This document shows, piece after piece, positions 1 to 45,361 of a DNA stretch of 58,460 nucleotides (position 1 is the stretch's first letter; each line of letters opens with the position of its first letter). The position numbers were made by a program, and so were the translations under genes. This stretch comes from a virus. The stretch is from the IMG/VR virus record IMGVR_UViG_3300034073_002726, positions 1-58,460 of that record; one strand, given 5' to 3'. The notes beneath the pieces were generated by a model. That model searched no databases. It was not told the DNA's origin and was given only the letters and a program-made list of their open reading frames with translations.

Positions 1-3000
1 TTCTTCTGGTTGAAGCGCTGGATCTCCTGCATTGCTTCGGCCCGTGCCTCGGCATCCTTGGCCATGGTGGCGCGTGCTGCCTTGGCCAGCAACTCCTGGC
101 GGCGCTCGCCCAAAGCACGGTCCTGCTGGTAGATCGCGCTCTTGCCCTCAGTGGCATTGCGCACTTCCGAGGGCGAGAAGCCCAGGAACTGACCCGCCAC
201 TCCAGCCAAGCTCACCTCATCCTGGATGACCACTCCGGTTTTGTCCTGCACGCCCTCGGACTCGTAGCGAATCGCTTTGATTGGCCCTCGCAGTGCTGCG
301 GGCATCATGGCTTCCAGCCCGCGCGCATATTGCCCCTGGGACATATCCTGCAGGCCCTTGAGCACGTTGATGCCGATACCAGCCACCGGACCCAGCGCTG
401 CAGCCATAGCGGCTTCACCCAGGCGCTGCCCTTCCAGGCCCTCCTGCACGTCAGGGAAGATCAGCCGATCCAGGCCTACCCGGCCGGAAATGTCCCATGG
501 CGTCAGGCGCGACAGGCCATGCGCCAGAACTTCTGCTGGCTTCTGGCCCAAAGTGTCGGCCAACATGTTCTGTAGCGCCACCTTGGCATCCCATGGCTCG
601 TCGTCATCCCCGCCAATCATCGAGGCAGCCGCCAGCAAGGTTGTCACCATGGGCAGGCCCAGCACCCCGGCGGCTGCTGCATGGGTGGCCAGCAACCCGC
701 CCAGCGCCTTGCGCGCCTGTGCACGGACTTCTGGCGATTCGCCCTTGATGGCCTGCTGCGCATTGCGTGCCAGGGTATAGACCATGTTCTGGCCATACTG
801 CTTGAACAGCAACAGGACCTTGGCCACATTGCCTTGCATGAACCGTGGGCGATTTGCCGCGCCGTAGTCGAAGTGGCCATCGTAGGTTGCCTTCGTCGCT
901 TGCTCAAAAGCCGCTTTGTGGTCGGCACCCGCCTCGCGCGCCAGCCGGTAGGCCGCCACAAACGTCACCTGGCGGTTGAAGCGCTCGGCGTGGTGGAACA
1001 GGAACGATGCCCAGCGCATTACTGGCCGGATCTTCCACATCACCCCCATGTCCTCGCCCTGGGCGATCCCGGCCAGGTCGTGCGCCATGGTCACGTCGAT
1101 GGTGCCCGCGCGCACCGCCTCGTTGTAGGCCGCCAGCTCGTCGGCATTGAGCGATGCCGTGATGTCGTTCTTGCCCTTTGCCGCTTCGGCACTGGCCTTG
1201 AGCAACGCGGCGCTGGCCTTGCCATACCCCCACTTGGCCCCCATGATCGGGTACGCCACCAGCGCCGTCTGGCTCAGGTTGACCATGGCCGATGCGGGGG
1301 ACAAGCCCAAGTGGAACACGAACCCCAGGCTGGTCAGCGCTGTGGAAACCGGGTTGCTCTTGGGGTTCATCAGCGACTCATGGCGCTTGTTCATCTCGTC
1401 CACCACACGCTGGGCACTGTTCTGGTCGAAGTCCTCCACCTCGCGCCAGTCGTCCACATGCCGCTGCATCGCAGCCAACTCGTCCTGCATCAGGTCCGAG
1501 TAGCGCAGCTTTGCCAGATACCGGGCGCCGTGGAACATGTTCTGCGCGAACGCCCGGCGTGCGTCCTGGCTGAACCCCGGCGTGCCCTTGCGGTGAATGC
1601 CGTGCTTGGCCCAGCTCAGGTCAGGCAGGCTCGACAGGTACAGCTGGCCCAGCGTGTCCTCCAGCTCTGCACGCTGTGCCGCGTCCATGTCCTGCTTATC
1701 CAGCACCTGGTACAGCTCGGTCATGAAGCCGCGGCCCACCGCGTCACGGTCAGCGATGAAGTCCTTGGACAGCATCACCCGGCCCACGGTGAAACCTTTG
1801 TCGCGCGGGAAGGCCGACAGCAGGTTATTGCGCAGCGCCTCGGCCTCGGCCTTGGTTTCTGCCCGGCTCACGCTCTCCACCTTGCCGTCTGGCCCCTTCA
1901 CCGTCACCGCATACTGGCCAAAACGCGCCAGAGGGAAGTACACCCCCTTCACCGCCTTGAAAAACTCGTCGTCCATCTGCTTGAGCAGCGCCGCCTTGCG
2001 CTCGCCCTTGATCTCGCTGCGCTCGATCCGCTCCTTGATGGCGCTGCGCACCTTGGCGTGGTGCGACTTGTAGGAATCCCGCGTATCGGCGTAAACCTTC
2101 TTGGCATCGTCGCTCAGCAGGTTGTACTTGCGCCGCAGCTCCAGGTACTTGCCCTTGTCGTCGCCATCCACCAAATCCTCGGCAGGGTCGATCTGCGCCA
2201 AGGTGGCATCGTGCATCAGGTCGGCTAGCTTGGATTCATCCTGGAGCTTGGACCAGCGCGTCACCAGCTGGTCAGCTTCGGCACCGCCCTCGTTCTTGTC
2301 GGCTTCCATCTGCTGCACCAGCCGGTTGTACTCGGCCAGCGGCACCAAGTCGCCGTAGATGTCCACGATCTGGCGGCGGCCCAGGGCCTGCAGCCCAATG
2401 CCCAGGTAGTCCGTCAGCTTGAAGCCAGCGCGCTGCTTGACGTTGGAAACGGTGATGGATTTGATGGCGGCGCCAATGCGGGCGCCTGGGCCGTCGTCTA
2501 CGCTGCCTGCAGTGCGGCTGTAGAAGATGCGCTCATCCGCGCCAAACGCCTCGCCTCCATCTCGGCCACGACCAAGCCGGGATACATCCTCGCCTGCCCG
2601 AGCCAGAAGGCTTCCTCGTTCGGGTAGTTGCCGCGCGCCATCAATGGGTGTGGTTTGGAGGTGTCGGAATAATGCTGCTCGCGCAATAGTTCGCCAACCC
2701 GCTTGTCCCGCTGCTCCTGCTCCATGAGCCAAGCGATACTCGGAGGCGGATCGCTTGAGAACGAAAGCCAGTTGTCCGCGAGCCAGAGAACGTCCGGTGT
2801 CGGTTCGGTAGAAGCCTCGGTCGGGGTCATATGCGATAAGTTTGGAGGTCGGCATTGCATTATCCAGCGCCTTCACGCTGGCCGCAATCATTCTTTCTAC
2901 GTTGCCCACGTCGTCGCCATACACCCAGCGCAGAGGTGGAACGCCATCGCCGCCGCGTACCTGATCGGGGTGTGGTGCCAGGTGCGCTGTGGTGCCGAAC

Positions 3001-6000
3001 TTGAGGGCGCTGGACAGCATCTGCTCCAGGCGGCGGCGCAGCGCTATCGTGCTCAGGCCGGCCGGGTCGCCAATGAAAATCTTTCCTGTGTTGTGGGCGT
3101 AGTTCGTGGCGATGGCGTAGACCTTCTCCCCACCCTGCCCGGGCTTAAGCAGCGACACATCCAGCCACACATCTCCTGTGCGCGGGTCCACATCCTCGGG
3201 GTTCTCCCCGGGGCGCTCAGTGATCTGGTCGGTGATTTCTCCGTCCACCTGGTTGTAGCCATACAGGCTGGGGCCGTAGGGATTGCCGGTGCGCTCTGTG
3301 ATGCGCGCCACGCCGAAGTCAGGATGGTTCAATGTGTACATTGTCTCCCCGGGCAGGCGCGTCACGCGGACAGCAATCTTGGAGTCAATGTCAGCAGCGA
3401 TCCCCGCCACCGTATCTTTGCCAGACTTCGGCAGCGCAAACAACTCGTCCGCCTTGGCAAACTCGGCCAACGCCTTCTTTCCTGCATCCTCACCCAGGCT
3501 GAATGCTGGCTCAAAACCGCCCTGAACCTCAGGGGCTGCAACGGTAGCCGCGCGCCCGCGCTCCACAAAGCCGCGTGCGGGAATGATGTAATTATTCACA
3601 ATCTCAGCATCAGTTAGCTTGAGGTTGTTGAAGTACGGGACGTTTTCTCTCAGCCACGTCCTGATAACTGCGATCGCACGTTTTACAAAGCCGATGTCTG
3701 GCCGGACCTGTGAAAGTTCAGCCAGCACTTCCTCGGCCACCTCTCGGCGCTGCTTTTGCACCTTCAGGTCTTTCCCATACTCCTCGGCCTTGGGCTTCAT
3801 CAGATCGGGCCGGGCCATGGCGATCTGGTCCAGGATGCCGTCCAGGTCTTTGCCAAACATGGCGCGCAGGCCGTGGTGCCCCAGCGCTTCGTGGAACAGG
3901 GTTTCTGCAGCGTCACGCACGCTCGTCAGGCCATCTGCCACCAGATACACCTGGCCGCGGTAGTAGAAGCCACGGGGCGAACCAGTGGCGCCGCCTGCAC
4001 GCTGGCGGGCATCCTCCAGGCGCGCAGCCTCTGGTACGCGCATGTCCTGCATATTGGGCACCACGATGATCGTCGGCGCCTGGGCCCAGCGGGCGGCGAT
4101 GGTGTCGGCCACCTGGCGCACAGTGGTTTCGTTCATGGCGCCGGGGGCACCACGGCTCATCATTGGGGAGTCGCCTTCAGGCTTCAGGTACACCTCGCGG
4201 ATAAACCAGCCCCCATCCTTGCGGAAGGTGAACGGGTCAATCTTCTGCGCCTCGTCCTTCAGCAGGTCTGTGCGCACGATGCCGGTCAGAACCTTGCCCT
4301 TGCCGGTGGTGTGCGTGATGATTTCCGCGCCGTTGCGGTCCACCGTGCCCACGGCGTCAGGGTTGGCGGCTTTGGGTGCCTTTGGTGCTGTTGGCTTGCC
4401 TTCGACCTTCGCCTGGGCCCGCTCTGCCTTCTTGGCTTCGCGCTCGGCCTGCTCGCGTTCTGCCTGGGCTGCGGCCTCCTGCTCGGCTGACATTGCCCGC
4501 GGCGGCATGCTGATGTCTTCGATTTCGTCAAACAGCTGGCCAATGTCTTTGGTGTCGCTCAGGTCAATGGCTGGGCGGGCATTGGGCGCCTTGTCCTTGT
4601 TCGACTGCTTTTCCAGAATGACGATGCGCGTGACCACCGCCGTGCCGGCGCGTTCAAACGTCACCTGCGGCAGCTTGATTTCGGCCACCATGTAAACGCC
4701 GTCCGCGGGGCGGAACTTTTCTACACGCGGTCCTGGCTTAATGCTCTTGGCCAGGGTCAGCGGCTTGCCTGCAAACCGATCCTCGCCAGGCGCACGGAGA
4801 AAGTCCCCAGATGCGGCGCGGTCCACGCGATCCGCAACAACGTCAATCGCACGCCCCATGAACTCCACCGTTACGGTATCGCCGCGGTGAATCTCTCCCA
4901 AAGTTGGGTGTTTGTAGATCGGCTTGGATAGGCGCTCAGTCTCGCCATACATCCACTGGTCAAACCGCTTGTCAGCAGCTGGGCCAGTCGGGATCAGCGC
5001 AGCAATCCGGCCACCGTCACGCAGGTGCTTCACCGCTTTGGCCAGGTGCTCAATGGCCGTCTTGCCACCCACACCAAAGGGCGGGTTCATCGCAATACCG
5101 TCATATTTGTTGACGATGTTGTGATCCTCAAACGTGCCGTCAATGATCCGGTCCTTGCTGGCATCCATGGCCATGGCCAGGCGGGCGCGCAGCGTGGTGG
5201 ATGGCTCAATCACCGTGCGGTTGCTGATTTCCGGCAGCCAGCGCGCAATGGCCCCGTGCCCGGCGCTGGGCTCCAGGGACGATTCGCCGCCTCGCAGGCC
5301 CAGCCACTCAGCCATCTTGAAGCCCACGGGCTCAGGCGTGGCGAAGTAGTCCACACCCTCCTGCGCCTTGGTCTTGCTGTTCTTTTTCTGGGTCGCCCAG
5401 TAGTAGGTTTTCGCGCGGTCGTAGGCGGTAATGGCGGCATTGGCCATCTGGTCCCGCTCCTTGCCGCCCTTGCCCTCGCCTTCGTGGCCTGGAGGGTAGG
5501 TGTCCGACTCCTCAAACGCGGAAATGAATGAGTCTTTGAGTGCGCGGGCTTGCTCGCCCATGCCCAGGTTCTCGGCAGTGCTGGCGCGGCCTGCAATGGT
5601 GGTGGCAAAAGTCCACTTCTCCCAGTTGGTGCCGGTGTTCAGGTAGCGCATGATGGCGTCGCTGACCTGACCAGTGCGGTAAATCCGGCCCTCTTGCTGG
5701 ATGGCCAGCGTGGGCGCAGTAGGCTGGCCCAGGTTAATCAGCACGCGCTGGTGCTTGCCCGTGGTGTCGTGGCCGCTCCAGCCCTTGTTTTTGGCCGACT
5801 GCACCAGCATCACCTGCGGGCCGCTGGCGTCGTCCTGGAATCGCTTGTAGCGCTCCAGCAGATCCGCCTTTTTCTCGTCGCCGTTCACCAGCATGGTGTC
5901 GGGCAGCTCACGCTTGAACACCTCGATCGGGCTATCCAAGTCGCTCAGCGGTGCGTTCACCAGGCGCTTGAAGCGGGAACGGAACTCTGTCAGCGCCTCT

Positions 6001-9000
6001 TTGTAGGCCTCAAAGTCGGCTTTGCGCTCCTCGGGGAAGTCCTCGGGGAGTGTGCGCGGCACCTCAATATCGAACGGGTTGAACCCCCCGCCCTTCTTGT
6101 AGTCGTGGAACACCACCACCTTGCGGCCCAGGCCCAAGTGCTGGCGCACGATAGGAATCACCTCGGTCGCCTTGATGGCCTCCAGCAGGTAGCGGCGGCT
6201 CAGGAAGTCGAATTTCTTGCTGATAACGTCGCGCAGCGCTGAATACCCGTTCTTGTTGGCGTCCTCGCGGGCCATTTCAGAAACCCAGTTCAGCGCCTCG
6301 TCAATCTGGTTGCCAATGCCAGAGTCCACCAGCACAAAGCGGCGGTCATAGTCGGCGGGCACATCCAGCATACGGGCCGACAAAGAGCCCTTCTTGCGCA
6401 GCCAGCCGTTGAAATTGCGCTGCAGCAGCCCCGTATCCACCTTGGCGGGGTCCGGCTTGGTCAGCTTGTTGTAGCGCATCGAGTAACCGAAGTGCTGCAT
6501 GAAGAAGCGCTCGCGGTTGTCGCCCTGGTTGTAGCCGCGGGACTCGGTCTTGTCGCTGGGTTGGCCCTCGTTGTAGTCGAACAAGTAGCCATTGGCCCAG
6601 TCCACAGTGAACTCGTAGGCAAACGGCGTGGCCGACAAGGCCAGCAGGCGGGCGCGCTTGGCGCCCTGCATACCGTCCACCTCAGCCTGCACAGCCTCCC
6701 GCGCCTCGCGCAACTTGGCGGCCAGCGCATCGGCCTCGCGCTGCAGCTTGGCGTTTTCCTGGCGCACCGACTCCATCATGGCGTCCATCGTGTCCAGGTT
6801 GTTGAGGATCTTGTTGTTGCCCTCAATCCGTGCTGTCAGGTCACGCTGCCGGTTCAGATCATCCCGGTTCAGCATGGTGTGGCGCTGGCTCGCCCCGTCC
6901 GGGTGGTGGGTGATGGCGCGCAGGTTGGCCAGGTAGGTTGTCACCTTGCCGTCCGCCGACTGCATCAGCGTGTGCGATTCATCCGCCACCACCAGATCCC
7001 ACTGGCGGCGCGCCAGCGCATCGTTCTCACCCAGGTTGGCGTATGTCGTGATGACGATGCCCTTGCCTGCGTCCTGTGTGTCCTTCAGCTTGGTGATCTT
7101 CAGGCCCAGCGGCTCACCAGACTCCACCCAATCGGCGGCGATCTTGTCATCAGGCACCACAATCAGGGTGTTGGTCTTGCCCTGGCGCTGCATGCGCTTG
7201 ACCACGCCCAGGCCAGTGAAAGTCTTGCCCGTGCCCGTGCCATTGGTGAACAGCATGCCGTAGCCGTCAGGCACCGCGAAACGGTCCTCGGCCTTCTTCA
7301 CATCCTCCTGCTGGCCTGCAAGCAGGTAGGGCAGCGTCGCCTTGATGTTGTCCAGGTCGCCGGGCTTGACCGGCACCTTTTCAGCGGCGCGCTGGCGCTC
7401 CAGCTTGCTTAGCTTGTCATTGCCTGTTTGAGCAACTGCGTCAACTTGCGCTGCTGGAATGGGGTCAATGGATACTCCATCGACGCCAATGTCACTGCCT
7501 CGTTCACTGAAGTCACTTCCGGCAGAGACATTCGCAGCATCGGCTGCTGCGTTTCCTCCAGGTAAGAGGAAATCGCCTCGGTTTCCACCAGCAGCGGGGC
7601 CACCAGTCGGTACGCCAGCACCACGCGGTTGTCGGCCCCGGCCTTCTCCAGTGGCTTGTCCACCAGCTTGTCCAGCTGGGCGGGTAGCTCCTCGGGCGTC
7701 AGCCGGAACAGCGTCGCCCATGGCTGGCTCAGCGGCTGCATCGCCGCGATCTGGTTCCACACTGCCATTGGCACCTGCTGCATCTTGGTTCTCCTGCGCG
7801 GTAATCGCGTCCACATCGGCCGATTCAACGGCGGCCGCGCTGTCCATGCCGTCCAAACTTGCGGCACGCGGGTCATATTTGACACCCATGTACCACGATT
7901 TCAAATAGGGCCGCACACCGTCGCCCAAGTCTGCCAGCATGGCGCTGGCATAGGCGGCGAAGGTGCGGGCACCCTTCTCAATGTGATAACCGGCCAGCGT
8001 GATGCCGTCGATCATCATTTCTGGGTCAATCCCACTATTGAGGCGTCCCAGCTTCTTCTTCAGGCGCTCACGCGCCTTGGCGGCGGCGTCTTCGGTAAAC
8101 ACCGTGTTCGCGCTTACAGCTGGTGCCGGCGCTGGTGCTGGCGCCTCGGCGGGCATGTCAAAAATATTCGTCTGCCCGGTCAGGCTGTCCAGCGCGTCCT
8201 GGCCCAGTTCAAAGTTATCCGCTGCACGCTCTGACGCCTGGGCAATGCGCTTGCGCTCCTCGGCCTGGCGCTCTTGCTCCCGCGCCTTGCGGTCGGCTGC
8301 TTCCTGCTCGCGCTTGGCTGCCTCGGCGGCGTCCTGGCGGGCCACGATTTCCTCGGGGGTTTGGGCGGTCAGCAGTGGCTCGGGCTCGGTAGGTGGAGCT
8401 GCCTTCTCTCCCTTCAAGCGCGCGGCTGTCCTGCGCTCCAACTCGTCAAACTGCGCATCGGTGACATCCCATTCGCCATCTTCGTTTACGCCAATGCCCA
8501 TTTCGGCGGCTACGGCAGCCTGCGCTTCGGTGTAGTTCTCGCGGCCTTCGGCTTTGCGCTTCAGTTCAGCCTGTGCTGCAATCGACAATTGACGCAATTC
8601 AAAACCGCCAGCCGCTTGCACAACCTCATGGGTGCCAGTCAGGTCATAGCGCTCCTGAAATTGCTGCGCGCTGATTTTGGATTTGAATGGCTTCCCGTTT
8701 TCTTGGCGAACCACACGGTCAGACCGCAGGCGGCGCACCACTGCGTCGCGTTCTTGGCTTGCCGCCCAGGCGTTGTAATCCTTGGGCAGACCTTCTACTG
8801 GCTTGCCGCCCTGCTCCACATATTTGACGTAGGCCGCAGCCTTTTCGTCCATGGCTAGGCCATCAAATGCACTTGACCCCTTGACGCTTGCAGCCTTGTA
8901 GAGCTTGGCAGCCTCGCCACGCTCCAGTAGGTTGTTGAGAATCTGCGTCGGGAATGTGCGGAAATCGCGCTCCAACTGCTGGGCCGCGTCTGATGGCGTT

Positions 9001-12000
9001 GCTGCTGGCTTTTCTGCCTTGGTTTTTGAATCCTTTGCCGTCTTCGGCTTCGCCGCCTTCTTGGGCTTCTCGGCCTTTACACCTGCGGCTTGTGCTTCAG
9101 GTTCGCCGCGCTGTCCTCCTGGGGCAGCGGCTGCTTGGGCGCCATTACCTTCTTGGCCGCCTGGATTGCCTTGGCCATCTTGCTGTTGGGCTTGAGCCTG
9201 GGCATTTTGTCCGGGTTGGCCTCCGCGATCTTGATTAGATCCAGGCCCGCCTTCTCCTGCTGCTTGTCCCCCGATTCCCGGCTGGCCTTCACCAGGACCG
9301 CGCCCAGTATCGACGCTGCCAGCGGGTTGTCCTCGGCCTTCTTGGGGTTGAGCTTCTGCATTGCCTTGTCCTTCATTGAGTCGGTTGACGATTGTCGCAA
9401 GAATGTCCCCAGCCGTCACCACGTCGCCAAACATGCCAGCGTCTGCGCTGGTCGTCATGGCGCCCTGCACATAGTCGGCCAGATGCTGGGTCAGCTTTTC
9501 CTTGCCAATGGCGCGGGTCAGGTACTGGCCGCTGTAGAACAGGCGCAGCATGCCCACCGTCATCTCGGCGGGAGTCTCGCCCGTCATCAGATCCGGCTGG
9601 TTCACCAGGTCGTACAGGCTCATGCCGTCGCGGCGCGCCTTGCGGATCAGGCCAATGGCCTGCAGCAGGTTGTCGGTAATGTCGGTTTGCGGGTTGATGG
9701 CGTTCAGGCGGGCAGAGTCGCGCATGTTGGCCCACTGCCCGGCCACGGTTTTCAGCGCTTCGCCAATCGCCTTGATGTCCGTATCGGTGGAGTCAAACAT
9801 TTCTTCCACGATGTCGGAATCACCATAGGCGGCCTGCATCAGCGCGGCCTGGATGCGCTTGCGGCCGTCTTGTGACAGCTGGCCGTCTGCCGTCATCATC
9901 CCGGCCACATCCTGGCCAGCGCCCTGCAACTTGCCAATGAAGGCCCGCACAAAGTCGCGATTGGCAGCGCTGGTCACTTCGCCAGGCTGGTACACCGCCA
10001 GCACGCTGGAGTCCATCAGCGGTGCATCCTGGCGCGCCAGCTCGGCAGGGCTCATGCCCAGGCCTTGGCCCTGGCTCTTGGCGGCCATGCCTGCCGTGTT
10101 GTCGCTGTCCGAATACACCCGCACCAGGGCGGCATTCGGCGTGCGCGCAATGATGTCGGGCGAAATCCCGTGCATTGGAGTGTCAGCCTGCATGGCCTGC
10201 ACGTACTCGCCAGCCGTGCCAAGTTCGTGGGCACCGCGGATGCCCGCCGTGCGGCCATTGTTCAGCGCCTTAAGCGTGCCCGGCACCGTAGAGTCGAACA
10301 ACTCGTTGCGGCGCCCGTCTGCAAAGTTGGAAGGGTTCACCTTGGTGGCATCCACCACGGCATAGCGGAACGGCACCCGCTGGCCGTCGCTCATTACCGC
10401 CACATCCTCACGGCCATAGGCGTCAGGCGCAATGTCCTTCAGGTCGTCGCCCACGGCAAACACCATGGGCGCTCCACTGTCCGGTGTGCGGCTGGGGCCC
10501 AGGCGCATGTAGTCGGGGTTGCGCGCAATGTCGCTCATTTGCACCACCGAAGCCGCGCGGCCGCGGTCGCGGTTCTGCATGTTCACGTCTTGCGGCGCTT
10601 CCAGCGGCGGCAGCACAGGCGCAGCGCCGCCCTTGAGCGAGTCGTACTCGGCTTTGAGGGCGGCATGCTCGGGTGTGCCCACCTTGATCTGGCCTGGCGT
10701 GAACCCCTTGGACTTTGCAAAACTCCAGAAGTCGGCCGGCGCGGATTGCGCTACCGGGCCAGCCTGTGCGGCCTCTACCCCAGCGGCTTCCACCGCCCCA
10801 GCTCCCGCTGCGGGTACTCCGGCGGCTGGGCCTGCGGGCTGTGCTCCCACAGCTTGCGGCGCTTGGCCTGGCTGGCTGATAGCTGGGGCTGCTTGAGGTA
10901 CTTGGGGTGCTTGCGGTACGTCTTGGACATTCACGGGCTCCTGCGGGCGAACGACAAAGCCACCCGCCACGGGCACCACGGCACCGGGCGTCTTCTTGGC
11001 TGCACGGTCTGCTGCCATGCGGGTCTTGAACGGCTCACCGGCTGGGTTCAGGATGTCGGTGGGCGCTGGCGTAGCGCGTTGCGATACAGCCTGGCGCAAG
11101 CGGTCTGCCACAGGGTCGGTCTGGGCGGGCGCTTCGGATGCCGCGCGGGCAAGGCGCTGCTCTGGCGTCAGGCCCTTCTCGGCCTGCATGCGCTGCTGCA
11201 CATCGGCGGGCGTGATGCGGCCAGCGTCGAAGTCGCGCACGTAAGCGCGGGCTGCTGGCGTGTTCACGCCGCGCAGGTTGTCCAGATAGTTCTGCACCGG
11301 GTCTGTTTGCAGATCCAGGCCCACACCATCTGTGCGGGTGCGTGGCGCACGCTCCACGGGCGCGGCATCAGCCTGCTGCATGCGGGCAATCGTTTCGTTC
11401 AGCCGGGCCTCGCCCTGGGCGGCCATGTCTGGCGTCACCCAATTGGGCGGGACCAGCACGAAGCCACCTGCAGGATGCTCGGCCACAGCCAAATCCAGCC
11501 CACGATTGCGGGCTTCGTCCAGCATGCGCGCAGCATCGCTGGCGGGCATCGGGGGGCGGCGTTCGGCCACATTGGCCACGTTGGTGATGGCCGCGGCTTG
11601 CGCTTCATTGTTCATTCCCAGCGCGCCAGCCAACGGGTCGGCCCGCCCGGCCATGCCGCCGCCACCCAGCATGGAGCCCATGTCGGTATCGGTCAGGCGT
11701 TCGCCCAGCACAGGAGGTGGTGCATTCTCAGCCAGCAGCCGATCCAGCAATTTGCGGTTGAGTTGGAGTACACCTTTCGCCGCATCCGGCCGATTCAGAA
11801 CCGCATAGGCGCGCAAGGCGTCCTGGCGGGCGCCATCGGGCAGGGCGAGAATCTGATCGCGCACCGGGTCATCCACAGGCTCGGGCACGGGCTCGGCTGC
11901 CGCCTGCTCATCCACCAGCGGGGCGCCAGCCTCTACCGCCTGCGCCTTGGCCTCCACGCCTGCATTCACCGCCTTGGTCAGCGCGCCGGACTCGGGTAGC

Positions 12001-13115
12001 TTCTCGGTGGCTCGGATGGCGTCGGCGGCTTCCTTTGCGGGGTTAACGGCTGGGTCTAGCGCTGCCGCCTGACCTTCAAGCGGGCCGGTAATACCACCCA
12101 ACAAACCACCAATCGTGCCTTCCATCAGGCCTTGACCTACCACGCCTTGCATACGTCGCTCTGGCGCCAGCACACCGGCGTCCACCGCCGCATCATTGCC
12201 CGCAAAGCGCTCTTGCGCGCCTTGGCCGCCTTCAGTCGCAAATTCTTTGCCAAAACCCTTGGCCACGGAAGACATCACGCCCGATTGAACGGGCTTCTTG
12301 CCAGCGCCAAGCAAGGTGCGCTCAATCGGCCCGGTGGCAGACGCCACACCACCAAGTACACCACCAAGCACCTGCTGCATCGTGCCTGCGCCGCCATACT
12401 CCTGCGCTTGCGCGGCCAGCGCGCGGGCTTCCTCTTCTGGCATGCCTTGCTGTCTGGCGTTCTCGTAGGTTTGCTCGAACTGGGAGCCCTTGACCGCGCC
12501 AACACCCTGCACGGCGCCCAGGCCAATGTTGGTTTTAAAACCAAACTTTGCGGCTTCCTCGACCGCTTGCTTGGCGGCACCGGATGCTAAAAACACATCC
12601 TTGCTCACGCCTGCCGCTTTGGCCGCCTGTGCCAGCTTGAGGGCCTGAGCCACTTTGCCCACACCCAAGGTGGCGAACGATCCCACCCCTTGTGCGATCA
12701 TCTCGGCCGGCTGATCCCACAACATCCCCAGATAGGCCTGCGCCTCATCTAGTTTGCTGCCCGACGCTTCCGCCTCTTTGATGCGGGCCATGCTGGCTTG
12801 CGTCGCGGCCTGAGACTGTGCGCTTTTTTGTGCGAACAAGAACTTTGACGCATCATCCAGCCCACCCGATACAGGGTTGTCCGCGCCCAAAAAGTCGCTG
12901 ATGGACTTGAACGAGCCCAAAGCCCCCTGCCCCAGCGACAAACCCACATCGCCAATGCGGCGGGCTACGCTGGGTTTTTCGGCTGCAACAGGCGCCGCAG
13001 CAGAGGCCGCCACTGGCGCATCAGCAATCCCGGCCCACTCAAAATCGGCAGGATCGGCATCTACCCAACGGGCTTTTTTCTGAGCGATCTGTCCTACTTT
13101 GGGTTTGGTTGCCAT
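1..13115 (-). CDS. Giant polyvalent phage protein (ParB-like, helicase, methyltransferase, PLxRFG); 3' end outside window
   Basis: From ATG 13115 one frame stays open for about 4,371 codons and leaves the window at base 1. Recognisable parts in order (residues from that ATG): a ParB/DdrB-like segment near 850-1030; an SF2 helicase near 1915-2500 with Walker A GTGTGKT at about 1959, a DESH box near 2045 and motif VI QEGRIYRTGQ near 2475; an adenine-methyltransferase-like segment with EPSAGHG near 2615 and NPPF at 2677; a zincin-like HEALGHHG at 3075; and PLARFG at 3728, the signature of PLxRFG phage proteins. The C-terminal part has hydrophobic stretches. Size and make-up match the roughly 4,600-residue virion-associated protein of Bcep22-like podoviruses (family knowledge). 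Ejection with the DNA and protection from restriction are inference. Linkers near 1250-1345 and 1780-1900 are G/Q/A-rich and are overprinted by other genes. Confidence 0.9.
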   Translation of the reverse strand, partial: MATKPKVGQIAQKKARWVDADPADFEWAGIADAPVAASAAAPVAAEKPSVARRIGDVGLSLGQGALGSFKSISDFLGADNPVSGGLDDASKFLFAQKSAQSQAATQASMARIKEAEASGSKLDEAQAYLGMLWDQPAEMIAQGVGSFATLGVGKVAQALKLAQAAKAAGVSKDVFLASGAAKQAVEEAAKFGFKTNIGLGAVQGVGAVKGSQFEQTYENARQQGMPEEEARALAAQAQEYGGAGTMQQVLGGVLGGVASATGPIERTLLGAGKKPVQSGVMSSVAKGFGKEFATEGGQGAQERFAGNDAAVDAGVLAPERRMQGVVGQGLMEGTIGGLLGGITGPLEGQAAALDPAVNPAKEAADAIRATEKLPESGALTKAVNAGVEAKAQAVEAGAPLVDEQAAAEPVPEPVDDPVRDQILALPDGARQDALRAYAVLNRPDAAKGVLQLNRKLLDRLLAENAPPPVLGERLTDTDMGSMLGGGGMAGRADPLAGALGMNNEAQAAAITNVANVAERRPPMPASDAARMLDEARNRGLDLAVAEHPAGGFVLVPPNWVTPDMAAQGEARLNETIARMQQADAAPVERAPRTRTDGVGLDLQTDPVQNYLDNLRGVNTPAARAYVRDFDAGRITPADVQQRMQAEKGLTPEQRLARAASEAPAQTDPVADRLRQAVSQRATPAPTDILNPAGEPFKTRMAADRAAKKTPGAVVPVAGGFVVRPQEPVNVQDVPQAPQVPQAAPAISQPGQAPQAVGAQPAGPAAGVPAAGAGAVEAAGVEAAQAGPVAQSAPADFWSFAKSKGFTPGQIKVGTPEHAALKAEYDSLKGGAAPVLPPLEAPQDVNMQNRDRGRAASVVQMSDIARNPDYMRLGPSRTPDSGAPMVFAVGDDLKDIAPDAYGREDVAVMSDGQRVPFRYAVVDATKVNPSNFADGRRNELFDSTVPGTLKALNNGRTAGIRGAHELGTAGEYVQAMQADTPMHGISPDIIARTPNAALVRVYSDSDNTAGMAAKSQGQGLGMSPAELARQDAPLMDSSVLAVYQPGEVTSAANRDFVRAFIGKLQGAGQDVAGMMTADGQLSQDGRKRIQAALMQAAYGDSDIVEEMFDSTDTDIKAIGEALKTVAGQWANMRDSARLNAINPQTDITDNLLQAIGLIRKARRDGMSLYDLVNQPDLMTGETPAEMTVGMLRLFYSGQYLTRAIGKEKLTQHLADYVQGAMTTSADAGMFGDVVTAGDILATIVNRLNEGQGNAEAQPQEGRGQPAGSVDTGRGPGEGQPGIGGQAAGEGGPGSNQDRGGQPGQNAQAQAQQQDGQGNPGGQEGNGAQAAAAPGGQRGEPEAQAAGVKAEKPKKAAKPKTAKDSKTKAEKPAATPSDAAQQLERDFRTFPTQILNNLLERGEAAKLYKAASVKGSSAFDGLAMDEKAAAYVKYVEQGGKPVEGLPKDYNAWAASQERDAVVRRLRSDRVVRQENGKPFKSKISAQQFQERYDLTGTHEVVQAAGGFELRQLSIAAQAELKRKAEGRENYTEAQAAVAAEMGIGVNEDGEWDVTDAQFDELERRTAARLKGEKAAPPTEPEPLLTAQTPEEIVARQDAAEAAKREQEAADRKAREQERQAEERKRIAQASERAADNFELGQDALDSLTGQTNIFDMPAEAPAPAPAPAVSANTVFTEDAAAKARERLKKKLGRLNSGIDPEMMIDGITLAGYHIEKGARTFAAYASAMLADLGDGVRPYLKSWYMGVKYDPRAASLDGMDSAAAVESADVDAITAQENQDAAGANGSVEPDRGDAAAEPAMGDAVPADARGATRPAGQAGGQATGEGRGRQPRGAGVPTGGPAAGGNRGDFLLPGGNAAADAANVSAGSDFSERGSDIGVDGVSIDPIPAAQVDAVAQTGNDKLSKLERQRAAEKVPVKPGDLDNIKATLPYLLAGQQEDVKKAEDRFAVPDGYGMLFTNGTGTGKTFTGLGVVKRMQRQGKTNTLIVVPDDKIAADWVESGEPLGLKITKLKDTQDAGKGIVITTYANLGENDALARRQWDLVVADESHTLMQSADGKVTTYLANLRAITHHPDGASQRHTMLNRDDLNRQRDLTARIEGNNKILNNLDTMDAMMESVRQENAKLQREADALAAKLREAREAVQAEVDGMQGAKRARLLALSATPFAYEFTVDWANGYLFDYNEGQPSDKTESRGYNQGDNRERFFMQHFGYSMRYNKLTKPDPAKVDTGLLQRNFNGWLRKKGSLSARMLDVPADYDRRFVLVDSGIGNQIDEALNWVSEMAREDANKNGYSALRDVISKKFDFLSRRYLLEAIKATEVIPIVRQHLGLGRKVVVFHDYKKGGGFNPFDIEVPRTLPEDFPEERKADFEAYKEALTEFRSRFKRLVNAPLSDLDSPIEVFKRELPDTMLVNGDEKKADLLERYKRFQDDASGPQVMLVQSAKNKGWSGHDTTGKHQRVLINLGQPTAPTLAIQQEGRIYRTGQVSDAIMRYLNTGTNWEKWTFATTIAGRASTAENLGMGEQARALKDSFISAFEESDTYPPGHEGEGKGGKERDQMANAAITAYDRAKTYYWATQKKNSKTKAQEGVDYFATPEPVGFKMAEWLGLRGGESSLEPSAGHGAIARWLPEISNRTVIEPSTTLRARLAMAMDASKDRIIDGTFEDHNIVNKYDGIAMNPPFGVGGKTAIEHLAKAVKHLRDGGRIAALIPTGPAADKRFDQWMYGETERLSKPIYKHPTLGEIHRGDTVTVEFMGRAIDVVADRVDRAASGDFLRAPGEDRFAGKPLTLAKSIKPGPRVEKFRPADGVYMVAEIKLPQVTFERAGTAVVTRIVILEKQSNKDKAPNARPAIDLSDTKDIGQLFDEIEDISMPPRAMSAEQEAAAQAEREQAEREAKKAERAQAKVEGKPTAPKAPKAANPDAVGTVDRNGAEIITHTTGKGKVLTGIVRTDLLKDEAQKIDPFTFRKDGGWFIREVYLKPEGDSPMMSRGAPGAMNETTVRQVADTIAARWAQAPTIIVVPNMQDMRVPEAARLEDARQRAGGATGSPRGFYYRGQVYLVADGLTSVRDAAETLFHEALGHHGLRAMFGKDLDGILDQIAMARPDLMKPKAEEYGKDLKVQKQRREVAEEVLAELSQVRPDIGFVKRAIAVIRTWLRENVPYFNNLKLTDAEIVNNYIIPARGFVERGRAATVAAPEVQGGFEPAFSLGEDAGKKALAEFAKADELFALPKSGKDTVAGIAADIDSKIAVRVTRLPGETMYTLNHPDFGVARITERTGNPYGPSLYGYNQVDGEITDQITERPGENPEDVDPRTGDVWLDVSLLKPGQGGEKVYAIATNYAHNTGKIFIGDPAGLSTIALRRRLEQMLSSALKFGTTAHLAPHPDQVRGGDGVPPLRWVYGDDVGNVERMIAASVKALDNAMPTSKLIAYDPDRGFYRTDTGRSLARGQLAFVLKRSASEYRLAHGAGAAGQAGWRTIARAALFRHLQTTPIDGARQLPERGSLLARAGEDVSRLGRGRDGGEAFGADERIFYSRTAGSVDDGPGARIGAAIKSITVSNVKQRAGFKLTDYLGIGLQALGRRQIVDIYGDLVPLAEYNRLVQQMEADKNEGGAEADQLVTRWSKLQDESKLADLMHDATLAQIDPAEDLVDGDDKGKYLELRRKYNLLSDDAKKVYADTRDSYKSHHAKVRSAIKERIERSEIKGERKAALLKQMDDEFFKAVKGVYFPLARFGQYAVTVKGPDGKVESVSRAETKAEAEALRNNLLSAFPRDKGFTVGRVMLSKDFIADRDAVGRGFMTELYQVLDKQDMDAAQRAELEDTLGQLYLSSLPDLSWAKHGIHRKGTPGFSQDARRAFAQNMFHGARYLAKLRYSDLMQDELAAMQRHVDDWREVEDFDQNSAQRVVDEMNKRHESLMNPKSNPVSTALTSLGFVFHLGLSPASAMVNLSQTALVAYPIMGAKWGYGKASAALLKASAEAAKGKNDITASLNADELAAYNEAVRAGTIDVTMAHDLAGIAQGEDMGVMWKIRPVMRWASFLFHHAERFNRQVTFVAAYRLAREAGADHKAAFEQATKATYDGHFDYGAANRPRFMQGNVAKVLLLFKQYGQNMVYTLARNAQQAIKGESPEVRAQARKALGGLLATHAAAAGVLGLPMVTTLLAAASMIGGDDDEPWDAKVALQNMLADTLGQKPAEVLAHGLSRLTPWDISGRVGLDRLIFPDVQEGLEGQRLGEAAMAAALGPVAGIGINVLKGLQDMSQGQYARGLEAMMPAALRGPIKAIRYESEGVQDKTGVVIQDEVSLAGVAGQFLGFSPSEVRNATEGKSAIYQQDRALGERRQELLAKAARATMAKDAEARAEAMQEIQRFNQK
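2498..2830 (-). CDS. Nested alternate-frame gene inside the giant gene (110 aa, unknown)
   Basis: This frame begins at codon position 2 of the giant gene and is open for 110 codons from ATG 2830; an in-frame ATG at 2860 is also possible. The product looks like an ordinary soluble protein, acidic and tryptophan-containing (VLWLADNWLSF, EEAFWLGQARMYPGLV), unlike the Arg/Pro/Ser-rich strings typical of shadow frames here. Its codons mostly end in G or C, whereas the giant-gene frame in the same stretch has weaker third-position bias. I see no strong Shine-Dalgarno site. I do not recognise a family. Confidence 0.5.
   Translation of the reverse strand: MTPTEASTEPTPDVLWLADNWLSFSSDPPPSIAWLMEQEQRDKRVGELLREQHYSDTSKPHPLMARGNYPNEEAFWLGQARMYPGLVVAEMEARRLARMSASSTAALQAA
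7409..7783 (-). CDS. Nested alternate-frame gene inside the giant gene (124 aa, unknown)
   Basis: ATG 7783 is preceded by AGGAG (7795-7791) with a 7-base spacer, an ideal ribosome site. The 124-residue product is balanced and helix-rich (RLTPEELPAQLDKLVDKPLE, VVLAYRLVAPLLVETEAI, FQQRKLTQLLKQAM) with strong G/C third-position use. The overlapping giant-gene frame here is a low-complexity G/A/Q/R linker (residues about 1778-1903) just before the helicase. The visible coding signature therefore belongs to the nested frame. No family recognised; the hydrophobic segment near residue 55 is too short for a confident membrane span. Confidence 0.75.
   Translation of the reverse strand: MQQVPMAVWNQIAAMQPLSQPWATLFRLTPEELPAQLDKLVDKPLEKAGADNRVVLAYRLVAPLLVETEAISSYLEETQQPMLRMSLPEVTSVNEAVTLASMEYPLTPFQQRKLTQLLKQAMTS
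9077..9361 (-). CDS. Nested alternate-frame gene inside the giant gene (94 aa, lysine-rich, unknown)
   Basis: ATG 9361 follows AAGGA (9373-9369) with a 7-base spacer. The 94-residue product is basic and helical (ASILGAVLVKASRESGDKQQ, KAGLDLIKIAEANPDKMPRL, KMAKAIQAAKKVMAPKQP). The giant-gene frame across the same bases is a G/Q-rich linker (residues about 1250-1346) between the ParB-like and later segments. The frame relation is the same as for the nested genes at 7409-7783 and 2498-2830. A small basic protein could bind DNA or act as a head-related protein, but nothing here shows that. Confidence 0.7.
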   Translation of the reverse strand: MQKLNPKKAEDNPLAASILGAVLVKASRESGDKQQEKAGLDLIKIAEANPDKMPRLKPNSKMAKAIQAAKKVMAPKQPLPQEDSAANLKHKPQV

Positions 13116-17070: not shown

Positions 17071-18938
17071 TATCGTTTTCTCACAAATGCGATGAGCGTT
17101 GTCTCGACGCGGGGCTCGCCGCCTGGGAAATACAAAGAACAGGACAACGTGTTTGCGCCTGGGGACAACGTTACGCGCGACGACCTACTTAAGGATGGGA
17201 TAGGGAAGTTTGAGTACCCATCATTACTAGACGGGGTGACAATAGAAAACAACGACCATGGCACCCCCCCAGTAATTTCATATCTTGGCTCATCGCTGCC
17301 TGTGGCCCAATAAGTAGCCGACTGGAGCCCCTGCCACGAAGCCAGCAACTGTGCTTCCCATACCTCTCCTTCTGGCACATTCACAACAATTGTCGCAGAC
17401 CTGTTGCCCGTGTCTGTGAACATGGTGCTGACCGCGTTGCCTGCGATGTTGACGGTGCTCACCGCGTTGATGGCGTCCGCAGTCAGGGTTCCTGAAAAAG
17501 AACCGCTCGCCGCCTGCAGCGACCCTTTGAACGTGCCAGTGGCCGCCGACAACTCGCCTTTGAATGTGCCAGTGGCCGCCGACAACTCGCCTTTGAATGT
17601 GCCAGTGGCCGCAGCCAGCGCCCCGGAAAACGTGGCGTCCCCCTGGATGTTGAGCTTGGTTCCGCTCCAGGTGAGGGCCGACCCCAGCGAAAACCGCCCA
17701 TCGTTGCCAAGGTAGAACCCAGGCCCCACACCATAGGGCGCCGTTCTCAGGCCGTCCTGGTCGATCGCAATGCCAGAAATCGCCCCGTAGTTGGCAAACA
17801 CGCCGCCGCGCACAACCACCTCACGGAAGTCTGCCAGGCCATCGCCTGTGATGCGCCACCCTTTGGTGTTGGTGGGGTTGTAGGTTGAACTCTGGATGTA
17901 CTGCCCGACAGCGATGGACCCGGCCTTGATCTTGTCTGCCGACAAATCCTTGATCTTCGCGTCGTCGATGGCCGCATTGGCGATCTTGGCATTGGTGATC
18001 GTGCCGTTTTTGATAAAGCCGTCTTCGATGTACACACCGGCAGGCACCTCCACGCCGTTGATCGTCGTTGGCGTTGTCTGCACAATGAACGGCCGGGTGG
18101 AGCTAATCGCACCATCGGTAGATGGCGCCCCCACATAGAACCTGTTGGCCAGCACCCCGAAGTCGATGCTGGGCCCGCGCTCTGCGCTGTTCGTGCCCAT
18201 AAGGCCATATCCGCCGATCAGCTTTTTGCCATCGGCCGCCACCTGCACGCGCATACCGTACTGCGTGGCCAGGTACTTCACCCCCGCCATCGAGTCGTCG
18301 ATGACTTGCGACAGCTCGGTGTTCAGCTCCGAGCCAGTGATTTGCCCATTGAGCGCATCCAGCAGCCGCTGCACATCTTCGCCCGTGCGCACCTGCAGGC
18401 CATTGATGCCGCCTGCAGGTGTGACCGACTCCACGCCGTCGCGCGTGCGCCAGGTGATCCACATGTGCCAAATCGTGGCCGGGTCAGTGGGGTATCCGTA
18501 AACCTCCCCGATGAAGTCCGCAATTCTCGTCGCCTGGGCAAAGGTTGGCAGCGGGTCGCCACTGTTGCGCTTGGCGCCATAAACAATGGTTCGGTCATGG
18601 CCACGCCCCTGAGTGTAGGTCGGGGCATCGTGCGTAATGAACACATTGGTAATCCCGGCGTCCAGCGCGAACCCCGTGGGCGTTGGCGGCGGCGTCAGAT
18701 CCTCCGTCTGGTCTTCTGTGGGGATGTTTGGATACACGCGCCCCGGCCGAATGGTCGTGTTGGGCCCACGACCTCCACCATACTCAAGCAGCCCAATATC
18801 CGTCAGGTCGCGCAGAGTCAACCCTTTGTCCAATGGGTCGCCGCGCAGGCCCATGTAAACCTGCAGCGTTTCCCGAATGCGTGCCTCAAAGTTGGGCGAG
18901 CCAGGGGCTGGGATGTCTAGGCGCTTGTCTTCACTCAT
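17070..18938 (-). CDS. Tail fibre / tail tip protein with DUF1983-like region
   Basis: I place the start at ATG 18938 (MSEDKRLDIPAPG), which overlaps the upstream stop as ATGA; an upstream in-frame ATG at 19022 lies inside the preceding gene. The product is about 622 residues. The middle contains VKYLATQYGMRVQVAADGKK and KIANAAIDDAKIKDLSADKI, the signature of the C-terminal region of J-like host-specificity proteins and fibres. It is followed by repeated AATGTFKGELS units and a beta-rich tip. Role: host recognition at the tail tip, by family and by the chaperone gene downstream. Confidence 0.85.
   Translation of the reverse strand: MSEDKRLDIPAPGSPNFEARIRETLQVYMGLRGDPLDKGLTLRDLTDIGLLEYGGGRGPNTTIRPGRVYPNIPTEDQTEDLTPPPTPTGFALDAGITNVFITHDAPTYTQGRGHDRTIVYGAKRNSGDPLPTFAQATRIADFIGEVYGYPTDPATIWHMWITWRTRDGVESVTPAGGINGLQVRTGEDVQRLLDALNGQITGSELNTELSQVIDDSMAGVKYLATQYGMRVQVAADGKKLIGGYGLMGTNSAERGPSIDFGVLANRFYVGAPSTDGAISSTRPFIVQTTPTTINGVEVPAGVYIEDGFIKNGTITNAKIANAAIDDAKIKDLSADKIKAGSIAVGQYIQSSTYNPTNTKGWRITGDGLADFREVVVRGGVFANYGAISGIAIDQDGLRTAPYGVGPGFYLGNDGRFSLGSALTWSGTKLNIQGDATFSGALAAATGTFKGELSAATGTFKGELSAATGTFKGSLQAASGSFSGTLTADAINAVSTVNIAGNAVSTMFTDTGNRSATIVVNVPEGEVWEAQLLASWQGLQSATYWATGSDEPRYEITGGVPWSLFSIVTPSSNDGYSNFPIPSLSRSSRVTLSPGANTLSCSLYFPGGEPRVETTLIAFVRKR
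17524..17616 (-). repeat. 33-bp tandem repeat in the fibre gene
   Basis: Two full 33-bp units (17524-17556, 17557-17589) and a third partial unit are almost identical at the DNA level and encode AATGTFKGELS repeats in the fibre shaft. The near-identity of synonymous positions suggests recent slippage-type duplication. Confidence 0.9.
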
Positions 18939-44656: not shown

Positions 44657-45361
44657 ATGGCTCAGCAGAAAAAGTACGAATTTGTCCCTGGCGATGAAAA
44701 AGTGGTTGCGCCAGGACGCACGGTGAAGCGCATCCGGGCGCTGGTAGCAATAGCCGCATTGGGCGTTGCTCCCGGAGAACTAGGCGGGTACATCGAGTCG
44801 GAGGGCAATCTACAACAGGTGTCCGGCAATGCGTGGGTGTCCGGCAATGCGCAGGTGTCCGGCAATGCGCGGGTGTCCGGCAATGCGCTGGTGTCCGGCA
44901 ATGCGCGGGTGTACGGCGATGCGCTGGTGTCCGGCAATGCGCGGGTGTCCGGCAATGCGCTGGTGTCCGGCAATGCGCGGGTGTACGGCGATGCGCTGGT
45001 GTCCGGCAATGCGCTGGTGTCCGGCAATGCGCGGGTGTCCGGCGATGCGCTGGTGTCCGGCAATGCGCGGGTGTCCGGCAATGCGCGGGTGTCCGGCAAT
45101 GCGCTGGTGTCCGGCAATGCGCTGGTTGAAAGCCAAACCGACTGGCTACTGGTTGGCCCCGCAAAAAGCAGCGGCCGCTTCACTACAGCGTATCGGGACA
45201 CAAAGATTGGGGTGCGTGTTTCGTGCGGCTGCTTTACCGGCACGGCACAAGAGTTCTCTGCACAGATTGAGGCGACACATGCAGGCAACCAACAGCATTT
45301 TCAGCAATACCGATTGTTCTGCCAGTTGATCGCTTTCAGCTTTGACATACAGCCCGCCTGA
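44657..45361 (+). CDS. Hexapeptide-repeat beta-helix protein (234 aa)
   Basis: From ATG 44657 (GGGA upstream) the product has a short N-terminal domain (KKYEFVPGDEKVV), then 17 hexapeptides of the type VSGNAR/VSGNAL/VYGDAL, then a conserved C-terminal domain (GCFTGTAQEFSAQIEATHAG). Hexads with V, small residue and N/D fit a left-handed or similar beta-helix. This combination, known from E. coli and other prophages, has no established function. The repeats are almost identical at DNA level, so length may vary between relatives. Confidence 0.8.
   Translation: MAQQKKYEFVPGDEKVVAPGRTVKRIRALVAIAALGVAPGELGGYIESEGNLQQVSGNAWVSGNAQVSGNARVSGNALVSGNARVYGDALVSGNARVSGNALVSGNARVYGDALVSGNALVSGNARVSGDALVSGNARVSGNARVSGNALVSGNALVESQTDWLLVGPAKSSGRFTTAYRDTKIGVRVSCGCFTGTAQEFSAQIEATHAGNQQHFQQYRLFCQLIAFSFDIQPA
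44819..45124 (+). repeat. 18-bp tandem repeat array (17 units)
   Basis: Seventeen 18-bp units of type GTGTCCGGCAATGCGCGG, differing at only a few positions. Because the period is a multiple of three and the sequence lacks stops in other frames, several other frames on both strands stay open across it; those are by-products. Confidence 0.95.

Follow-up and report, generated by a model that had tools for sequence, protein, structure and literature searches.

In a 58,460-nucleotide stretch of viral DNA (IMG/VR virus record IMGVR_UViG_3300034073_002726, positions 1 to 58,460; hereafter the window), a gene encoding a giant polyvalent (DarB-like / PLxRFG) protein of anti-restriction type occupies positions 3-13115 of the minus strand, specifies at least 4371 amino acids (aa) and has its C-terminal end past the window edge. 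We found that this gene carries small genes nested in its +1 frame, that is, on the same strand with the first base at codon position 2 of the giant gene. By the measure of sequence evolution two of these, N1 and N2, are real genes; a third, N3, is very probably a gene, and N0 is probably a fourth. We consider it likely that the giant gene encodes a modular protein together with independent small +1 proteins inside it, and that the linkers between its modules came from the in-frame joining of cassettes carrying the small genes.

The original prediction, made from the DNA alone, had described three convincing nested frames, all beginning at giant codon position 2, and had matched at least two of them to low-complexity linkers. 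The three protein-like +1 open reading frames (ORFs) lie at 9077-9400, 7409-7885 and 2498-2860, all on the minus strand, as are all features of the giant gene given below, and homologs place their likely true starts at 9361 (N1), 7783 (N2) and 2830 (N3). All three are indeed in the +1 frame, and linkers rich in Gly, Ala, Gln and Pro in the giant protein coincide with N1 and N2; the N3 region reads as the end of the LPD37 domain. N1 (94 aa; 9077-9361) stands directly after the ddrB-ParB module, where the giant frame gives a Gly/Gln-rich linker, and is preceded by AAGGA (9369-9373), which resembles a Shine-Dalgarno (SD) sequence. N2 (124 aa; 7409-7783) has the SD sequence AGGAG (7791-7795) ahead of its ATG. 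N3 (110 aa; 2498-2830) overlaps both the end of LPD37 and the interval between LPD37 and LPD39, and has no clear SD. N0, which was absent from the earlier three, would encode 51 aa in a Pro/Gln/Ala-rich linker (10775-10930) behind an SD-like AGGAG (10938-10942), and similar ORFs occur in L034 and L073 (L numbers, such as L002, L008 and L030, label the loci of relatives). ORF length alone was rejected as proof of nested genes, being only slightly out of the ordinary: a longest +1 ORF of at least 158 aa arose in 11% of 2,000 synonymous-codon shuffles (p ~0.11 for the longest), and the three regions stayed open in 1.7%, 3.8% and 0.6% of the shuffles, respectively. The case for the nested frames nevertheless proved stronger than first stated, with conservation rather than length being decisive.

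N2 is present in every relative found with a SNF2-type helicase module. It was intact and in the same frame in 31 of 31 IMG/VR viral loci that had been gathered by means of the helicase segment alone, and it occurs in the same eight cultured-phage records that carry the module; cultured phages with N2 include Parlo, ZX1 and Skulduggery. N1 accompanies the ParB module in L034, a locus with neither the helicase module nor N2. For both genes, alignments of the nested-frame proteins score far above those of the giant frame, and purifying selection was found in the second frame beyond that in the first. Between L017 and L018, divergence across N2 is 0.154, 0.000 and 0.008 at giant codon positions 1, 2 and 3, compared with 0.045, 0.027 and 0.257 across the helicase, and N1 shows a similar, weaker shift of substitutions to giant codon position 1. 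Both genes have a conserved translation start with an SD; the N-terminus of N2 usually reads M[Y/Q/H]Q[V/A/T]P, and its start and SD are conserved together. AlphaFold2 predicted a compact helical N2 (predicted local distance difference test, pLDDT, 85; predicted template modelling score, pTM, 0.79), a fold for which no match was found among PDB or viral structures, and a helical N1 at lower confidence (pLDDT 75).

Giants without N2 carry another small +1 gene, N2' (~105 aa), between their upstream part and a different enzyme module. Comparison revealed no similarity between N2 and N2', and we rejected a relationship between them. An SD stands ahead of 107 of the 114 distinct N2 and N2' genes, compared with 6% of other ATGs in the same frame. 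A codon-model scan of 55 giants returned 93 gene-like nested ORFs in the +1 frame and none in +2, against a null of 0.2 per synonymous-shuffle replicate. The Dar genes of phage P1, used as a control, gave no gene-like nested frames and only negative codon-model scores.

Other small +1 ORFs were observed in the relatives. In L019-L023, L026, L028, L031, L032, L058 and L063, a further gene of 49-54 aa (MTNSTAKK... or VTRSNE...) ends directly before the N2 ATG, so that it and N2 form a small two-gene operon within the giant gene. More small nested +1 ORFs with gene-like codon use lie at giant codons 966 (L005), 1100 (L068), 1065 (L010), 277 (L006) and 906 (L009), and members of the same class at 799 (L041), 1035 (L042), 680 (L017/L018) and 4567 (L027). 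Several of them appear mutually related (short LSPESRKKVLEMA-type proteins).

The giant frame is kept open across N2 and N2'. At those wobble C/T sites of the two genes where T would introduce a giant-frame stop, T was found in 0 of 1,259 cases, compared with 23.6% at other C/T sites. These genes had been collected by protein similarity, without regard to whether the giant frame was open, and the absence of stop-making T is therefore strong evidence that the giant is a single translated chain.

N3 differs from N1 and N2 in its likely origin. Homologous +1 ORFs occur in L072, L076, L078 and L080, most of them starting with MT at a giant-frame Tyr-Asp, and the codon-model log-likelihood ratio is 34.6 in L078 and 41.0 in L013. 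Between L076 and L078, divergence at giant wobble positions is 0.124 in N3 compared with 0.307 upstream, and distant pairs favour the giant frame. Since that frame, which encodes LPD37, is the better conserved of the two in distant pairs, N3 was more likely overprinted onto an existing domain. A search of phage records for LPD37 domains lacking N3 gave matches in Erwinia phages only, and these, covering just the N-terminal half of the query, are no more than candidates. The LPD37 (PF18853) motif WRTIARAA was also seen to be what the N3 motif GE.LRE.L becomes when read out of frame; given this correspondence and the overlap of the LPD37 C-terminal part with N3, some of the conservation in that part of the family may be due to the nested gene.

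We then considered where the linkers came from. In L008 and L030, the giant gene contains a nested +1 gene for an HNH (homing) endonuclease that matches phrog_3377 over its full length (E 4e-52 and 1e-50), while Pfam gave no endonuclease match for it. This family occurs in 977 phage records and is free-standing in hundreds of phages; the order of events is clear in these two loci, the small gene having preceded the linker. The L030 giant aligns to the L024 giant on both flanks (23-990 to 13-950 and 1148-3625 to 1057-3559), and the stretch between the aligned flanks is the endonuclease read out of frame.

Exchange was also seen at the start codons of N2 and N2'. The Klebsiella phages ZX1 (N2) and SopranoGao (N2') share ~75-80% DNA identity over the 60 bases that lead to the ATG, after which they are unrelated; Parlo and PEp14 are likewise ~75-80% identical over the 60 bases before the ATG, and homology is lost beyond it. 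N2 is followed by the SNF2 module in 73 of 73 evaluable loci and N2' by an x-GWG helicase/methyltransferase module in 78 of 78, although some of the loci counted cover one and the same contig and the N2-SNF2 pairing is partly built in, the relatives having been collected with N2 or with the SNF2 module. To judge from these comparisons of sequence, the small gene and its enzyme module are exchanged as a unit under a shared SD. Junctions coincide with small-gene edges in these two phage pairs, and the matches of P1 DdrB and DarB end or begin near N1 and N2'. P1 DdrB aligns to the ddrB-ParB module up to giant aa ~1249; in L002 the alignment spans giant codons 914-1271, just short of the start of N1 at 1273. 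In L092, N2' ends near codon 1546, and codon 1564 is aligned with residue 40 of P1 DarB.

The choice of frame bears on the same question. In ordinary genes of the window's genome, 120-codon stretches are open in 5.8% of cases in +2 and 0.8% in +1, a difference of ~7-fold. Because a gene's own +2 frame is more often open, reading existing genes through predicts that nested genes will be found in the giant +1 frame, as seen, whereas de novo overprinting would favour the giant +2 frame, which is empty.

The original prediction is partly supported. It held that domain genes once separated by small genes had fused in frame, and that the small genes survived while their sequence, read in the other frame, became the linker. 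P1 DdrB and DarB are indeed separate, but we found no relative in which the same domains are separate genes with N1, N2 or N2' free between them. The HNH endonuclease and the ATG junctions also support the proposal; N3, which overlaps a conserved domain and looks overprinted, does not. All loci with N2 or N2' have them nested, except the Sinorhizobium phage PBC5 (L088), in which the giant is split by a frameshift, and L103, a decayed prophage piece that we rejected as a free-standing copy. In PBC5 (6397-6867) the upstream giant half ends in the frame of N2', and a separate ORF encodes the enzyme half; one frameshift, whether a sequencing error, decay or a real split, can explain this arrangement. 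The 'endolysin' profile phrog_938 was seen to end in N2' and to have the length of the PBC5 upstream half; the profile therefore seems to be built on the PBC5 ORF, and its matches here should not be taken for an endolysin.

Several observations weigh against a cassette origin of the linkers with the small genes coming first. No free-standing N1, N2 or N2' was found in PHROGs, Pfam, NCBIfam, phage records or IMG/VR, a negative that leaves aside three loci in bacterial genomes. P1 DdrA and Ulx have no detectable sequence relationship to N1, N2 or N2', and were rejected as their homologs. The N1 and N2 linkers contain more Gly and Gln and less Arg than +2 readings of ordinary genes, so the giant frame has been shaped too. 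To these are added the better conservation of the giant frame across N3 in distant pairs, the partly built-in pairing of N2 with SNF2, and the L030 endonuclease, which has no clear SD. The contrast in openness is small in other loci (6.5% in +2 compared with 4.3% in +1). Finally, insertion or exchange at a junction accounts for the endonuclease and the cassette swaps no less well than a fusion of neighbours does, and, as between neighbour fusion and insertion into an existing giant, the sequences favour exchange or insertion of cassettes bearing small genes.

Among the alternatives, the reading in which the nested ORFs are chance open frames in DNA rich in G and C, conserved along with the giant protein, draws on the abundance of long alternative ORFs here and on the length-only p of ~0.11. 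Position-specific divergence, conservation of SD and ATG, the codon-model scan, the conservation of nested over giant frame and the negative P1 Dar control together leave it a negligible probability, and for N1 and N2 it is already refuted at the sequence level. It is also very improbable that the nested frames serve as alternative C-termini of the giant, reached by programmed frameshifting and not by separate initiation. The PBC5 upstream module does continue in frame into N2', but the start codon is conserved with a correctly spaced SD in 107 of 114 genes, and in L020-L023 and other loci an in-frame stop lies directly before the ATG.

Overprinting, in which disordered spacers came first and small genes arose in them de novo in +1 because disorder tolerates a second frame, deserves more weight, as the overlapping genes of viruses are usually described as having arisen in this way (review PMC8227390). 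N3 fits it, with a giant frame that is more conserved in distant pairs, and the databases hold no relatives of N1, N2 or N2' except within giant genes. However, the HNH endonuclease cannot be de novo, genes arising in this way should also use the more open giant +2 frame (0 of 93 do), unrelated small genes are swapped at the ATG along with the enzyme module, and the predicted fold of N2 is a confident one; as a general account we regard overprinting as unlikely. We give similarly little credence to the strict form of the original prediction, in which adjacent domain genes, with precisely these small genes between them, lost their stops and so fused while the small genes stayed where they were. 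The separate P1 DdrB and DarB modules, the adjacent small Dar genes, the module matches that end or begin near N1 and N2', and the separate PBC5 ORFs that meet at N2' all agree with it. Against it stand the missing relative with free small genes between separate domain genes, the unrelated sequences of the P1 small proteins, a PBC5 split that can be a single sequencing error or decay, and the endonuclease and cassette swaps, which show insertion or exchange into an existing giant.

In the cassette model that we favour, ribosomes on the giant message would make the full chain, reading the small-gene stretches as Gly/Ala/Gln/Pro-rich linkers, and other ribosomes would start at the internal SD and ATG to make small proteins of 51-124 aa, predicted to be helical where modelled (N1 and N2). 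We infer, with good support, that the small genes occupy module junctions and move together with the enzyme module that follows (the SNF2-type for N2, the x-GWG for N2'), and hence that the linkers arose when cassettes carrying small genes became fused in frame and were translated through. P1 DarB is packaged into the head, and the small protein Ulx is listed as an aid to DarB localization (PMC9024508); by analogy, the small proteins would help the neighbouring module, either by keeping the enzyme inactive or in its packaging into the head. Since each small gene is strictly paired with the enzyme module downstream of it, a role as its partner is the most likely one, in which the small protein may restrain the enzyme in the producing cell or aid its entry into the head. 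A broader formulation can be offered only tentatively, and we lean slightly away from it: that DarB-like giants are cassettes of small gene and following enzyme module joined in frame at the start codon, the small genes forming exchangeable sockets and a hidden layer of unannotated module-specific helpers, each read in its own +2 frame as linker.

Profiles from Pfam, PHROGs and NCBIfam showed that the giant combines several polyvalent-protein domains in a single chain. In order along the protein, these are a ddrB-ParB domain (aa 842-1001; 10113-10592; Pfam PF18763, E 1e-14), a conserved block upstream of N2 (aa 1668-1766; 7818-8114), an SNF2/ResIII-type helicase region that lies directly downstream of N2 in relatives (aa 1935-2534; 5514-7313), an N6-methyltransferase-like region (aa ~2576-2725; 4941-5390; a weak match to Pfam MTS, with phrog_6263 and phrog_9133), LPD37 (aa 3312-3486; 2658-3182; Pfam PF18853, E 2e-51), LPD39 (aa 3555-3728; 1932-2453; Pfam PF18858, E 5e-46) and PLxRFG (aa 3724-4371; 3-1946; NCBIfam NF032893, E 1e-254). 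In the Pseudomonas phage Itty13 (NC_070969, L095), the giant gene is mostly unannotated and three antisense ORFs are annotated over it. Elsewhere in the window, an 18-bp tandem repeat is present in 17 copies at 44818-45126 (score 513), and a 33-bp unit is repeated 2.7 times with 98% identity at 17524-17612.

At least two unrelated and widely conserved families (N2, 46 distinct sequences; N2', 68) do not appear in the phage annotations and family libraries that were consulted, the sole exception to the absence of N1, N2 and N2' from profile libraries being phrog_938, which contains N2' via PBC5. Annotation of N2 was absent from five of five records inspected. These families are most likely missing because gene finders avoid genes inside genes. 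N2 and N2' offer a testable route by which giant multidomain proteins may gain domains and disordered linkers, and they are candidate partners of the adjoining anti-restriction enzymes.

Among the papers available for searching, none on nested genes in DarB-like genes was found. Several known systems can be compared with the one described here. The P1 Dar system (DarA, DarB, DdrA, DdrB, Hdf and Ulx; PMC9024508) consists of virion proteins, of which DdrB and DarB are homologous to modules of the giants, and its small genes adjoin the modules, with ddrA beside ddrB and ulx beside darB; however, these are separate genes without gene-like nested frames, and the small proteins are not detectably related to those reported here. 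Polyvalent proteins of phages and conjugative elements (Iyer et al. 2017, PMC5512222) are likewise giant multidomain chains with ddrB-ParB, SNF2 helicase, methyltransferase, LPD37, LPD39 and PLxRFG, and domain shuffling is known for them (PMC5512222). A term search of that survey turned up nothing on genes that overlap or are nested in the present sense; the embedded genes, and the way they pair with modules, come in addition here. The DarB-like giants of Bcep22-like phages, Lastavirus, Parlovirus and Pavtokvirus are of the same gene type and share the same lysis-gene neighbourhood, and that of JC1 (gp69) has been detected in virions by mass spectrometry (PMC9144972); in the records examined, N2 and N2' are unannotated. 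The Rz/Rz1 spanins offer a parallel in which a small gene lies entirely inside a larger one, in another frame and with its own start site. However, Rz and Rz1 are one interacting pair of lysis proteins, whereas the giants hold several small genes that are unrelated to one another, lie where modules meet and are swapped together with them.
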